From an uncultured Salinisphaerales bacterium (GTDB lineage: Bacteria > Pseudomonadota > Gammaproteobacteria > Nevskiales > CAJXLF01), in contig CAJXLF010000015.1 of the NCBI GenBank assembly GCA_913055805.1, positions 1 through 60,412 on the forward strand: 60,412 nt of DNA. Direction: 5' to 3'. This document shows positions 22,622-33,592 of this stretch, in pieces. The first letter of the stretch is position 1, and each line of letters begins with the position of its first letter. The notes under the pieces were generated by a model that did no database searches, was not told where the DNA came from, and saw nothing but the letters and a program-made list of their open reading frames with translations. The position numbers and the translations under genes were made by a program.

Positions 22622-23647
22622 ATGCGCATGAATAATCCCGACCCTGCCGTACTGCGCTGGGAAGACCGTTTCCCGCGGCTTGGCCTGGCCATCGACCTGA
22701 CCATGGTGACCCTGGTCATTATTAATCTGAGCTGGATCATCTTCGACAGCCTGTTCGCTTTCGGCGGCGTTCAGTCCCTGCTGGCCCTGGTCTTCAGCCA
22801 GGGTTTCGTCGACTGGTACGACACCCGTATCCACGAATGGTTTTTTGCCTACGACCTGTGCTTTGTGGCGATATTCGTCACCGAACTGCTGGCCCGCTGG
22901 ATCTACGCCATCCGCCACCGCCTTTACAGTCACTGGGCCGCCTATCCGTTTATCCACTGGTATGACGTACTGGGCTGCATCCCCGTCGGTTCCCTGCGCG
23001 CACTGCGCATTCTGCGCGTGATTGCTGTACTCACCCGCCTGCAGAAACTGGGCGTGATCGATTACACCCAGTGGAGTCTCTACCAACTGTTCAACCGCTG
23101 GTACAACATCGCGCTGGAAGAACTGTCTGACCGCATTGCCGTGAAAATTCTCGAAGGCGTACAGATCGAACTCAAGCAAGGCAGGGAACTGGAGCGCAAG
23201 GTCATCGAGCGCGTTGTATTGCCGCGCAAGCAACAGCTGATCGATAGCGTAACTGACAACCTGGCGGGCTCGGCGCGCGAACTGTACAGCGACAGCCAGG
23301 CAGATCTGGAAACCTATATCAAGGACATGGTTGGCACGGCGCTGCATAACAACCTGGAAATTCGCACGGTCGAGAAAATCCCCATGCTGGGCGCAGCCAT
23401 AAGCAAGCTGCTGGAACATGCCGTTACCGATATCGTCTGTAACAGCCTGGAGAACGGGGTCAACAACATGGGGCGGCCGGAATTCAAGCGTATTGTGACC
23501 GACATCACCGATGCCATTATTGACGGACTGGCTGCGCCCGAATCCGAAAGCTCGGGCACCATTACCGATGCCCTGGCCGATCTGGTAGAGGTGGTCAAGG
23601 ACGAAATACGTATCCAGCGCTGGAAGGAAGCATTGCCTACCCCCTGA
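22622..23647 (+). CDS. Voltage-sensor-like membrane protein without an evident pore
   Basis: A 341-residue protein whose N-terminal half resembles the four-helix voltage-sensor module of ion channels: S1 at about 21-45, S2 at about 73-97 with Glu88, S3 around Asp115, and an S4-like helix with Arg126, Arg129, Arg132, Arg139 and Lys142 at mostly three-residue spacing. After S4 the chain is charged and amphipathic (about 165-340), and I see no pore helix or selectivity filter such as TxGYGD. The C-terminal part looks cytoplasmic and helical. It is followed eight bases later by pldA, so the two are probably co-transcribed. Assignment as an ion-transporter relative is from the S1-S4 pattern only. 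Confidence 0.65.
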   Translation: MRMNNPDPAVLRWEDRFPRLGLAIDLTMVTLVIINLSWIIFDSLFAFGGVQSLLALVFSQGFVDWYDTRIHEWFFAYDLCFVAIFVTELLARWIYAIRHRLYSHWAAYPFIHWYDVLGCIPVGSLRALRILRVIAVLTRLQKLGVIDYTQWSLYQLFNRWYNIALEELSDRIAVKILEGVQIELKQGRELERKVIERVVLPRKQQLIDSVTDNLAGSARELYSDSQADLETYIKDMVGTALHNNLEIRTVEKIPMLGAAISKLLEHAVTDIVCNSLENGVNNMGRPEFKRIVTDITDAIIDGLAAPESESSGTITDALADLVEVVKDEIRIQRWKEALPTP

Positions 23648-24804: not shown

Positions 24805-25245
24805 ATGACCAATGCCGAGCCCCCTCTCGTCATCTATATCGAGGATGACATAGAGGATCAGGAGCTATGTCAGTTTGCGCTGGAAAAATCGCAAATGGAC
24901 ATCAATATGCAGTTTATCGGCGATGGTCAGGGAGCCATGGCCTATTTCGACGGCTTTTGTTCAGACGAGGTTGGCAGGCAACGTCCGAAACTGGTACTGC
25001 TGGATCTGAACATGCCCGCCATCAGTGGCTGGGATCTGCTGCGGCATATTCGCGCCAAACCCGAACTGCGCTGTGTACCCGTGCTCGTTTTCACTACCTC
25101 GCATGCGCCGCGGGACCTCAGGCTGGCTTACGAAGAAGGCGCCAACGCCTATATGGTCAAGCCGGCCGGGTTGGACGCGCTCACCGAGTGTTTCGAGACT
25201 ACAATGCGTTATTGGCTACATACTGTGGTATCCGATAGCACCTGA
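24805..25245 (+). CDS. Single-domain response regulator (Rcp1/CheY-like)
   Basis: A 146-residue stand-alone receiver domain. The acidic pocket is Glu13-Asp14-Asp15, the phosphoacceptor is Asp67 in LLDLNMP, Thr97/Thr98 and Lys119 (VKPAG) complete the active site. It has no output domain. The sequence style (IEDD at the start, ALEKSQ, MPAISGWDLL) is that of Rcp1-type partners of phytochrome-like kinases. It lies 27 bases before the ethylene-receptor-like kinase gene, so it is very probably that kinase's partner. Confidence 0.9.
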   Translation: MTNAEPPLVIYIEDDIEDQELCQFALEKSQMDINMQFIGDGQGAMAYFDGFCSDEVGRQRPKLVLLDLNMPAISGWDLLRHIRAKPELRCVPVLVFTTSHAPRDLRLAYEEGANAYMVKPAGLDALTECFETTMRYWLHTVVSDST

Positions 25246-25272: not shown

Positions 25273-26430
25273 ATGGATACTCTCAGGGACTTGCTCAGCA
25301 ACGATTTCATGCCGCATGGCCATTGCTATTTCTGGCGCCCGGACATTCTCTGGACCCATGTCCTGGGTGACGCCGCCATCGCCGCGGCCTATTTCTGCAT
25401 ACCGGCCATTCTTCTGTACTTCCTGTTCAAAAAACGCCCTCAGGGCATCCCTTTCTGGTGGGTGCTGATTCTGTTCGCTGCCTTTATCTATCTCTGCGGC
25501 GTGACCCACATATTTGGAATCATTACCGTCTGGGAGCCCGTCTACGTTATTGAAGGCTGGCTCAAGGTCGCCACCGCCATTGTTTCGGTCGTCACCGCAA
25601 TAGCCCTCATACCGCTTGTACCCAAGGCACTCAGCCTCAAGTCGCCGGAAGAACTGGCACGCGCCAACACTGCGCTCAGCAACGAAATCCGCGAGCGGGA
25701 CCGGGTACAGCGGGCGCTGGAGATCTCCAATCAGGAACTGGAAGACATCACCTCGATTACCGCGCATGATCTGCAGGCGCCGCTACGCCGTATGATCACC
25801 TTCACCGACCTGCTGCGGGACAAACTCAGCGGCAATGGCGGCAATCCCGAAGAACTCACCGAGATTATGGATTCCATCGTGCGCAACGGCCAGAACATGC
25901 GCCAGCACCTGGAAGATGTCATCACTTTCAGCACCATCAGCCGTTTTGGCGCCGAGTCCTCCGCCGTTGATGTTGGCAAGTTGTTGCGGGAAATCACCGA
26001 CAACCTGGGCAAACTCGGCAGCAGTGGCGAGATTGAATTCATCATTGATGAAATGCCTGTCATTCACACTTCCAGACAGGTGCTCTATCACACCTTCCAT
26101 AATCTGCTGGATAACGCCATCAAGTACCGCGCCAGGGATCGAAAACTGGTGATTCATATCCACGCCGAGAAAGCGCAAACCCATGAGGGTCAGACCGAAT
26201 GGGTGTTTTCGGTGAAAGACAACGGCATCGGCATCGAGCCTGAACACAGTGACAAAATCTTCAAGCTCTTCGGCCGCTTGCACAGCAAGGAGGCCTACCC
26301 CGGCAGCGGCATCGGCCTGGCTACCGTGAAAAAACTCCTGCTCAACCAGGGCGGCCGTATCTGGCTGAACTCGGCACTGGACGAAGGCAGCTGTTTCAGT
26401 TTCAGCCTGCCTGTTACGGCAGGCGCTTAA
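25273..26430 (+). CDS. Histidine kinase with ethylene-receptor-type membrane domain
   Basis: A 385-residue kinase. Residues about 27-118 hold three membrane helices that align with the ethylene-binding domain of plant ETR1. The residues known to matter there are all present: Asp33, Tyr40, Ile43, Pro44, Ile72, Cys75 and His79, corresponding to ETR1 Asp25, Tyr32, Ile35, Pro36, Ile62, Cys65 and His69; the last Cys/His pair binds copper. A coiled coil (about 125-157) leads to the H-box with His165 (TAHDLQAPL) and the ATPase domain (HNLLDNAIKY, DNGIGIEPEH, GSGIGLATVKK). There is no GAF or receiver domain. The stop shares TTAA with the convergent lipoprotein gene. Confidence 0.9.
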   Translation: MDTLRDLLSNDFMPHGHCYFWRPDILWTHVLGDAAIAAAYFCIPAILLYFLFKKRPQGIPFWWVLILFAAFIYLCGVTHIFGIITVWEPVYVIEGWLKVATAIVSVVTAIALIPLVPKALSLKSPEELARANTALSNEIRERDRVQRALEISNQELEDITSITAHDLQAPLRRMITFTDLLRDKLSGNGGNPEELTEIMDSIVRNGQNMRQHLEDVITFSTISRFGAESSAVDVGKLLREITDNLGKLGSSGEIEFIIDEMPVIHTSRQVLYHTFHNLLDNAIKYRARDRKLVIHIHAEKAQTHEGQTEWVFSVKDNGIGIEPEHSDKIFKLFGRLHSKEAYPGSGIGLATVKKLLLNQGGRIWLNSALDEGSCFSFSLPVTAGA

Positions 26431-31410: not shown

Positions 31411-32403
31411 ATGAATACAGAGCAGGCTGCCAAAGCCAGGGTCTTGCTGGTTGAAGACAATGCCACGAATCTGAAGATTCTCAGCGGCATCCTCACCAAG
31501 CTGGACTGTGAACTGATAACGGCAAGCACCGGTCGCGATGCCATGGGCGCGATTGCCGAAAATCACTTCGCCCTGATCCTGCTCGACATCAACCTGCCTG
31601 ACATGGATGGTTTCCAGATCGCCCGGACCCTGTCGGAAGATTCCCGCAAGCGTGAAACGCCCCTGATTTTTCTGACCGCCACCTTCAAGGATGAAATAAG
31701 CCGGTTAAAGGGTTATGAACTGGGGGCCGTTGATTACATCCTCAAGCCGGTGGAACCCTTCATTCTGCAATCCAAGGTGGAGGTATTTCTGGACCTGTAT
31801 CACAGCCAGCTACGGCAGATGGAACTGCGTCGCCTGCTGCACAAGCGCAATCAGGAACTGGAAACCGAAATCACCGAGCGCCAGAAGGCAGAGGAAGCCG
31901 CCCGGCATCAGGCCAGCCATGACCCCCTGACCGACCTGCCGAATCGCCTATTGTTCATGGACCGTTTTGAAACCGCACTAGCGCGTGCCCGCCGCGAACA
32001 AAGACGCATGGCGCTGATTTACATCGACCTGGACAAATTCAAACCGGTGAACGACGAACATGGCCATCATGCGGGAGATGCACTACTCAAGGCGGTAGCC
32101 AGGCGACTGTCTTCCCAGTTGCGTGAAGCGGATACAGTGGCGCGCCTGGGTGGTGACGAATTTGCCGTATTGCTTGAAGACATCCAGAACCGCAAGGACG
32201 CAGAACAGGTTATGGAAAAACTCGCCCAGGCACTGGATCAGCCTTTCAGTATCGAACCGCTGCCGGGCAATCCGGAAATTACAGTTCAAATCGGCGGCAG
32301 CTTCGGGTTATCAATCTATCCTGACGACGCCGAAGAGGAAGAAGCACTCCTGCATGAGGCTGATGTACAGATGTACGAGATGAAGAAAGCGCACAAACAC
32401 TGA
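31411..32403 (+). CDS. Response regulator with diguanylate cyclase output (REC-GGDEF)
   Basis: Makes cyclic di-GMP when its receiver is phosphorylated. The 330-residue protein has an N-terminal receiver with Asp59 (LLDINLPDMDG) and Lys112 (LKPVEP), a helical linker (about 130-168), and a GGDEF domain with intact GGDEF at 247-251 and an RxxD inhibitory site (Arg238-Asp241) five residues before it. It is predicted active and product-inhibited. It is tail-to-tail with an EAL phosphodiesterase, with one base between the stops. No kinase gene is adjacent; the nearest is the ethylene-receptor-like kinase 5 kb upstream. Confidence 0.95.
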   Translation: MNTEQAAKARVLLVEDNATNLKILSGILTKLDCELITASTGRDAMGAIAENHFALILLDINLPDMDGFQIARTLSEDSRKRETPLIFLTATFKDEISRLKGYELGAVDYILKPVEPFILQSKVEVFLDLYHSQLRQMELRRLLHKRNQELETEITERQKAEEAARHQASHDPLTDLPNRLLFMDRFETALARARREQRRMALIYIDLDKFKPVNDEHGHHAGDALLKAVARRLSSQLREADTVARLGGDEFAVLLEDIQNRKDAEQVMEKLAQALDQPFSIEPLPGNPEITVQIGGSFGLSIYPDDAEEEEALLHEADVQMYEMKKAHKH

Positions 32404-32404
32404 A

Positions 32405-33592
32405 TCAGATCGTGCCGTGTTCCTCCAGGAACACTTCCAAATCCTCTATGGGCATCGGCCGGGCAAAACAATAACCCTGGCCATAGTCAATGCCCAGCCC
32501 CTGCAGGGTATCGGCAAGTTCCTGACTTTCCACACCCTCGGCCACAGTGTCCATCCCCAGTTCCTTGGCCAGTCGTGACACGGTACTGACAATGGTCAAG
32601 GCCGTATGATCCTGGTGAATAGCTGATACAAAACTGCGATCCAGTTTCAGCGTATCGGCCGGGAACTGATGCAGATATTCCAGGGAACTCTGCCCCACCC
32701 CGAAGTCATCCAGCGCCACCGTCACCCCAAGCAACTTGAATTGCAGCAGCAACTCGTTTGCCGCCTGAATATTCTGCGCCAATTCGGTTTCGGTGACTTC
32801 TATCTTCAATTGCCCCGGACCCAGGCCATGCACCTGAATGGCCTCGCCGACCTTTTCAGCCAGTTCCGGATCGGAAAACTGACGACCGGAAAGATTCACA
32901 CTGACGAAGGGAGATTTGGACTCGGCATCTTCATTCATCCTATTGATGCCAAGGCGCTCCATATCAGCGCAGGCCTGCTCAATGACCCAGCGCCCGATCT
33001 CCACAATGGCCCCCGAACTCTCTGCCAGCGGGATAAACTCTGCGGGCGGCAAGAAACCATACTCGGGCCGGTTCCAGCGTATCAGCGCCTCCACGCCGGC
33101 GACTTTCATATTGTCCAGACGCACAATGGGCTGGTAATAAAGCACGAATTCGCTTTTTTCCAGGCCGCGCATCATGCTTTCCACATCCTGCAACTGACGC
33201 ACGGCAGATGCCAGACCTTCCGCAGAAGACTTGGTCACATCCCAGTTGGAGATGAGCATGTTGCGCATATCACTGAGAATCGTGATGAGGAATTCGCGCA
33301 GCAAGGGGTCGCTTTCCGACAGACGCTTGTCGATGTCCTGCCGGCGCACGATCAGCACCTGCGAATCTTCTCTGGCTACGGCGGTGGCCGTGCGTATGCG
33401 CTGCCCCAGCAGAGCCATTTCGCCAAGGAAATCACCAGCGTAGTGAATGGCATGTAACTGCTTGCTGGTCCCGGAGCCGCTGTACCGCGCGAGGCTGCCG
33501 CTTTCAATCAGATAACCGCAATCACCGGCATCACCCTGACTGTAAAGGGTTTCGCCCGTCTTGAGCTGACGCCGACTCAGGTCATCCGACAT
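32405..33592 (-). CDS. Cyclic-nucleotide-binding EAL phosphodiesterase
   Basis: A 395-residue fusion of a Crp-type cyclic-nucleotide-binding domain (about 1-115) with an EAL domain (about 140-390). The phosphate-binding cassette FLGEMALLGQRIRTATAV (55-72) retains Glu and Arg. The EAL domain keeps the catalytic set: EAL at 168-170, Asn in SVNLSGRQF, Glu in EVTETEL, DDFGVG, Lys in KLDRSF and Glu in VAEGVESQE. It should degrade cyclic di-GMP, probably under control of cAMP or cGMP, so linking two second messengers. It converges with the diguanylate cyclase gene. Confidence 0.92.
   Translation of the reverse strand: MSDDLSRRQLKTGETLYSQGDAGDCGYLIESGSLARYSGSGTSKQLHAIHYAGDFLGEMALLGQRIRTATAVAREDSQVLIVRRQDIDKRLSESDPLLREFLITILSDMRNMLISNWDVTKSSAEGLASAVRQLQDVESMMRGLEKSEFVLYYQPIVRLDNMKVAGVEALIRWNRPEYGFLPPAEFIPLAESSGAIVEIGRWVIEQACADMERLGINRMNEDAESKSPFVSVNLSGRQFSDPELAEKVGEAIQVHGLGPGQLKIEVTETELAQNIQAANELLLQFKLLGVTVALDDFGVGQSSLEYLHQFPADTLKLDRSFVSAIHQDHTALTIVSTVSRLAKELGMDTVAEGVESQELADTLQGLGIDYGQGYCFARPMPIEDLEVFLEEHGTI

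Follow-up and report, generated by a model that had tools for sequence, protein, structure and literature searches.

Does the gene at 25273-26430 encode a bacterial ethylene receptor, and through which partner would such a receptor act? We analyzed the window (the whole stretch of DNA, 60,412 nucleotides from an uncultured Salinisphaerales bacterium), for which an ethylene-receptor-like histidine kinase paired with a CheY-like regulator had been predicted. The domains of this kinase, its residues, its pairing with a receiver gene and its kinship are established by the results below. We consider it probable that the two proteins form a membrane receptor system, in which a Cu(I)-dependent kinase for ethylene (or another small alkene) phosphorylates the adjacent receiver.

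Domains and residues of the window kinase

The open reading frame 25273-26430 (+) starts with ATG and encodes a membrane histidine kinase of 385 aa. The kinase gene, its parts and the receiver gene before it are as follows.

24805..25245, + strand: receiver-only response regulator, 146 aa, Rcp1-like, with Asp67 as phosphoacceptor by motif (LLDLNMP) and Lys119 (Response_reg; Rcp1 structures; residues from sequence)
25273..26430, + strand: histidine kinase with an ethylene-binding domain (EBD), 385 aa (Pfam ETR1_N, HisKA, HATPase_c)
25273..25662, + strand: EBD, residues 1-130, with D33, Y40, I43, P44, I72, C75, H79 and K98 present (alignments)
25312..25326, + strand: PHGHC motif, residues 14-18, just N-terminal to helix 1 (EBD alignment)
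25672..26427, + strand: kinase core with H-box His165 (ITAHDLQAPLRR), N-box HNLLDNAIKYR, DNGIGI and GSGIGLA (sequence, Pfam, solved structures)

In a Pfam scan, the kinase matches ETR1_N (PF25487) over residues 25-122 with an E-value of 1.3e-33, which excludes chance as the origin of the match, and with a score of 115.6 bits against a curated cut-off of 27. This is the sole ETR1_N match in the 3.38-Mb genome (21 contigs, 95.7% complete), and 14 control genomes contain none. HisKA (1.7e-08) and HATPase_c (2.3e-24) follow, and the scan finds neither GAF nor PAS; with His165 in place, the kinase thus has the intact H-box and ATPase domain, and lacks the plant-type GAF domain, as had been predicted. 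The solved structure closest to the kinase core is the histidine kinase 8f71 (1.3e-31), followed by bacteriophytochromes (from 2.4e-22).

The closest experimentally tested relative that we found is AzoEtr1 of Azospirillum brasilense Sp7 (NZ_CP012915, locus L160), whose EBD is 47.9% identical to that of the window. Excerpts of PMC11819568 report saturable 14C-ethylene binding by AzoEtr1 residues 1-130, mutation of D35 and C75, and an adjacent receiver-only gene; D35 and C75 are the counterparts of D33 and C75 in the window. The seven ethylene-binding residues match AzoEtr1 and other EBDs column by column in the alignment, and the helix-3 lysine, K98, bears the same number as in AzoEtr1. The original prediction had all seven ETR1 residues present with the right spacing. 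All seven are present, and the spacing within helices 1 and 2 equals that of AzoEtr1, but the loop between these helices is two residues longer: P44 to I72 spans 28 in the window, versus 26 for P46 to I72 in AzoEtr1. The extra residues, 56 and 57, stand opposite a gap in 89 and 66 of 93 aligned rows, among which one genome's gene (G126) was entered twice. The predicted ethylene-receptor-like kinase is supported by homology, by the seven residues together with Lys98, and by its EBD being 48% identical to one that binds ethylene.

Structure models of the complete kinase and of its isolated EBD reach mean pLDDT values of 56.6 and 60.5, low because only four sequences were aligned; they show three helices (at about 23-53, 61-84 and 88-111, with low confidence) and no reliable site. 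Across 92 EBDs, Asp33 occurs together with Lys or Arg in column 98 in 65, neither is present in 20 and the remaining 7 are mixed. As evidence of a contact between Asp33 and Lys98, this covariation was rejected, as it is not significant after tree correction: Asp33 differs in 4 independent pairs on supported branches, and column 98 follows in 2 and is unchanged in 2.

The PHGxC motif before helix 1 is not one of the seven ETR1 residues. His15 is found in 86 and Cys18 in 86 of the 92 aligned EBDs, and both in 83 (sums over five groups); the motif also occurs in AzoEtr1 and in the cyanobacterial EBDs of Kovacikia, Acaryochloris and Pseudanabaena. Judging from the positive residues of the loops, it should face the periplasm, and it might let copper enter, bind a second metal or form a disulfide. 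Plant ETR1 differs here: residues 4 and 6 of its N-terminus engage in disulfides (PMC6586836, in excerpt), whereas the window has PHGxC.

Ethylene-binding domains in the order

ETR1_N is strongly enriched in the window's order. It is found in 55 of 85 genomes (15 of 21 genera), compared with 29 of 398 in a phylum sample (28 above the cut-off) and 16 of 369 in a class sample (12 above the cut-off); both samples contain the window genome, G000, and the class sample contains further members of the order. The order yielded 61 matches, of which 60 were used (an 87-base fragment, G003:C169, was left out). From the phylum sample, 29 of 32 match rows were used, after G000, which is the window, a 78-base fragment of G351, and G479 (L152, below the cut-off, with no EBD on search) had been set aside. 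The set of 92 EBDs consists of these 60 and 29 together with L002, L003 and L005; viral contigs scanned for further EBDs contained none.

The 60 EBD genes of the order, window included, encode 29 EBD-kinases, 28 EBD-GGDEF proteins (some with EAL) and three that are unassigned (L096, L118 and L120). Pfam finds ETR1_N and GGDEF in L067, ETR1_N, PAS, GGDEF and EAL in L098, and a REC protein with a REC-GGDEF-EAL protein at L064. L120 is a short EBD frame with an adjoining GGDEF frame. L096:1390-7191 and L118 are EBD proteins in which no kinase domain is recognised (by Pfam for L096); they directly follow a receiver gene, and upstream of them, in the same direction, lie a CHASE-domain kinase, another kinase and a REC-PAS protein.

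The two main types differ at the ligand site. All seven residues are retained in 26 of the 29 EBD-kinases, and Asp33 in 28 of 29, versus 8 of 28 EBD-GGDEF proteins, the rest of which have His, Asn, Ser or Glu. Because the corresponding Asp25 of ETR1 is required for ethylene binding (PMC11819568, in excerpt), many EBD-GGDEF proteins may bind something other than ethylene; by alignment, the window EBD is in the ethylene-type group that keeps Asp33. A uniform family is also contradicted outside the order, where all seven residues are kept in just 17 of 28 EBD-kinases. Two EBD-kinases, L174:5818-7053 and L175:4789-6387, lack the copper-site cysteine, and L174 lacks the histidine as well.

Such variation bears on what the window kinase senses. 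Its fold and Cu(I) site could be as we propose and its input nevertheless be copper or redox state, another pi-acid ligand (CO, O2, acetylene) or another alkene. In this direction points the EBD-GGDEF clade, which keeps Cys75 in 27 of 28 and His79 in 28 of 28 members and Asp33 in only 8, such that the scaffold tolerates changes at the site; moreover, PHGxC could be a second metal site. However, the window retains Asp33 and Lys98, as in an ethylene-type site, and AzoEtr1, which likewise has PHGxC, binds ethylene. We regard a non-ethylene input as distinctly unlikely.

In a tree of the EBD alone (92 rows), all 28 EBD-GGDEF proteins share a clade of 30 rows with L117 and L120 (support 98), and the window EBD groups with those of Legionella (L002 and L003; support 95, 59-60% identical). 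A tree of EBD plus kinase (57 rows, quick search) joins the window to 27 of the 28 other EBD-kinases from the order, with SH-aLRT values of 89 with the window and 94 without it, both below the 95 mark. Since the two trees place the window differently, its EBD and its kinase may have different histories, possibly through domain exchange.

The receiver gene and the proposed signal path

A receiver-only protein encoded 27 bases upstream of the kinase had been predicted, and this is what we find: the frame 24805-25245 (+) carries Response_reg alone (1.9e-15, Pfam). By its closest solved structures, Rcp1 (1jlk, 1i3c) and phytochrome response regulators (from 6e-22), the regulator predicted as CheY-like is more exactly Rcp1-like. 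The kinase core and the receiver both match 8avv, a bacteriophytochrome with its response regulator, which suggests that the pair belongs to a known class of kinase and receiver. Cph1-Rcp1 and bacteriophytochrome-response regulator are kinase/receiver pairs of this sort: they share with the window a phytochrome-type kinase core and an Rcp1-like receiver, but take their input from a bilin photosensor rather than an EBD.

Gene order in relatives points the same way. A receiver-only gene lies upstream of the EBD-kinase at 26 of the 29 loci of the order, window included (directly at 6, one gene further up at 20), and in five EBD-kinases besides that of the window, the receiver ends 18-53 bases before the EBD match. 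On this basis, the receiver is the likely partner of the adjacent kinase. For L070 and L117, the 2.6 kb upstream contain no receiver gene in the same orientation, and at L066 the contig ends. At L070:5140-7285, a second HisKA kinase gene lies directly upstream on the same strand, and the receiver-bearing genes are on the opposite strand.

Further upstream in the window, a gene of the phospholipase A1 family (PF02253; 23655-24686, same strand) ends 118 bases before the receiver gene, and is itself preceded by a gene for a membrane protein that matches an ion-channel family below threshold (PF00520, E-value 0.007; 22622-23647). Scans for promoters and terminators gave no excess over shuffled sequence, Rfam gave no match at gathering thresholds and no tRNA was found.

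We infer the copper, the ligand, the sign of the response and the phosphotransfer as follows. Cys75 and His79 of the three-helix N-terminal domain would hold Cu(I), and Asp33, paired with helix-3 Lys98, would position the site. Binding of the ligand would alter autophosphorylation at His165, and the phosphate would pass to Asp67 of the adjacent receiver, which presumably works by protein contact, because it has no output domain. Ethylene would act as an inhibitor, as is argued for AzoEtr1 and SynEtr1 in the excerpts of PMC11819568.

The pairing of an EBD-kinase with a receiver is already known, as PMC11819568 (in excerpt) describes a functional bacterial receptor with a receiver-only neighbour. 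AzoEtr1 and AzoRR-etr1 share with the window the seven residues, Lys98, PHGxC, a histidine kinase and an adjacent receiver-only gene; AzoEtr1, however, has 525 aa and a PAS domain, with the receiver gene (135 aa product) downstream, whereas the window kinase has no PAS and its Rcp1-like receiver is upstream. SynEtr1 (Slr1212, UirS) of Synechocystis is likewise an EBD histidine kinase with a separate response regulator (PMC11819568 and PMC5812497, in excerpt), but contains a light-sensing GAF domain (PMC7700396, in excerpt), and its regulator activates transcription of a small RNA, in contrast to the window with its receiver devoid of an output domain and its kinase devoid of GAF. Plant ETR1 has the same three-helix EBD with copper- and ethylene-binding residues; unlike ETR1, the window kinase has no GAF and probably works by phosphotransfer instead of through a CTR1-type kinase. 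Plasmid p2 of Novosphingobium sp. ES2-1 (NZ_CP063447) encodes a 384-aa EBD kinase whose end is overlapped by a receiver-only gene, annotated just as ATP-binding protein and response regulator; there, unlike in the window, the receiver (111 aa) is downstream. Taken alone, the window pair adds a further lineage to those known for this kind of system.

c-di-GMP enzymes at ethylene-binding-domain loci

At 20 of the 29 EBD-kinase loci of the order, in 7 genera, a REC-GGDEF-EAL or REC-EAL gene lies upstream and ends 9-115 bases before the EBD match, with the receiver gene further upstream of it. In six of the 29, among them the window, no such gene is present and the receiver immediately precedes the kinase; neither gene is found at L070 and L117, and at L066 a piece of an EAL gene is found at the contig end. 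As an internal control, the 28 EBD-GGDEF loci have no REC-GGDEF or REC-EAL gene within 4 kb (0 of 28; Fisher p 1e-8, ignoring relatedness). Judged by motif, 11 of the 20 upstream genes have an intact GGDEF signature; in the other 9 it is degenerate or absent. The full set of EAL catalytic residues is present in none of the 20. If active, the partner enzyme is therefore predicted to synthesize c-di-GMP, with EAL perhaps as a binding or regulatory part. Among close relatives in genus g7, the partner is degenerate in three (L075, L077, L082) and absent in five (L092, L094, L097, L099, L100), in what looks like gene loss in progress.

Outside the order, a REC-GGDEF or REC-GGDEF-EAL gene lies within 4 kb of 5 of 28 EBD-kinases, all in family f8; at L126, a GGDEF-EAL gene without REC is on the opposite strand. 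Nine loci from other orders of the class include two EBD-GGDEF-EAL fusions, L168:3889-6990 (1034 aa) and L170:3793-6381 (863 aa), from families f221 and f249, and two with an adjacent REC-GGDEF gene, L169 and L171 (f209 and f201). These nine are outside the 92 EBDs and come from 18 match rows of the class sample, in which G000, G064, G087 and G126 were already included; G493 (above the cut-off, partial) and G484, G501, G604 and G691 (below it) were left out. No REC-linked or fused c-di-GMP enzyme is found at 23 of the 28 EBD-kinases outside the order or at 5 of the 9 further class loci. The c-di-GMP link of EBD receptors is hence recurrent, and not universal.

At the window locus, the kinase is not immediately preceded by a REC-GGDEF-EAL or REC-EAL gene, and none of the genome's 5 GGDEF matches falls in an open reading frame that matches both REC and EAL as well. 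In the EBD plus kinase tree, the group that contains the window is adjoined by L139 and L142, where a REC-GGDEF or REC-GGDEF-EAL gene accompanies the receiver, and by L123 and L127, where the receiver stands alone. The ancestor of the window's kinase group probably had, and fed, a REC-GGDEF(-EAL) partner whose gene is now absent from the window locus; the window's branch is long, and a gain after the window had split off is the alternative to a loss in its lineage. Both the long branch and the absence of a partner that is present at 20 of 29 loci would also fit a receptor that has decayed to a ligand-blind kinase or phosphatase, yet the kinase motifs are undamaged and the seven residues and Lys98 are all in place, and we find decay very improbable.

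Two c-di-GMP genes lie further downstream in the window.

31411..32403, + strand: REC-GGDEF diguanylate cyclase, about 5 kb downstream of the kinase (Pfam, genome profile matches)
32405..33592, - strand: cNMP_binding-EAL phosphodiesterase, convergent with the REC-GGDEF gene (stronger of the 2 EAL matches of the genome)

The EAL gene is adjoined by a gene for a neutral/alkaline ceramidase (PF04734; 33753-36137) with a lipoprotein-like signal by eye.

The window receptor might act via c-di-GMP through these two genes, 5-7 kb away. They are the strongest of the genome's 5 GGDEF and 2 EAL matches and stand in the same window, and EBD-kinases of relatives are adjoined by REC-GGDEF or REC-GGDEF-EAL genes. 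However, four genes intervene, and the proximity was noticed post hoc. We tried the pair as the missing operon partner and rejected it: the best matches of relatives to the window REC-GGDEF (mostly 44-50% identity, near full length) lie off their EBD loci, also in EBD-free genomes, and the genes of their EBD operons score lower. A link of this REC-GGDEF to the receptor is possible, but by orthology it is not the EBD-operon partner, and we rate a c-di-GMP output of the window receptor through these two genes as unlikely. For the window, we prefer the adjacent receiver as the output of the proposed ethylene receptor.

According to PMC11819568 (in excerpt), ethylene lowers c-di-GMP and biofilm formation in A. 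brasilense, by a pathway from the receptor that its authors call unknown. The wiring described here is a candidate route for this fall in c-di-GMP, and as the receptor domain is repeatedly fused to, or found beside, c-di-GMP enzymes, the Azospirillum pathway becomes a directly testable hypothesis. A wide range of output domains in bacterial EBD proteins is noted in PMC7700396 (in excerpt), with no mention there of c-di-GMP enzymes. Neither EBD-GGDEF proteins nor an operon of an EBD-kinase with c-di-GMP genes is described in the available portions of PMC4686702, PMC5812497, PMC6682694, PMC6963811 and PMC12172448, or elsewhere among the literature matches listed; Lacey and Binder 2016 and Papon and Binder 2019 may list the fusion.

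A joint reading, which we put forward tentatively and at a little under even chances, is that bacterial ethylene receptors are broadly c-di-GMP switches. The order would have split into EBD-GGDEF cyclases and EBD-kinases with a receiver and a REC-GGDEF-EAL protein (its EAL degenerate), other families would have evolved comparable links, and the window locus, in the kinase branch, would be a stripped form that keeps the receiver; many Asp-less EBD-GGDEF proteins may sense another small molecule at the same Cys/His site. The recurrent c-di-GMP wiring in relatives is the added value of this analysis and matters more than the window pair. It suggests that, beyond the two or three bacteria investigated to date, there may be others whose attachment is under the control of gaseous alkenes.
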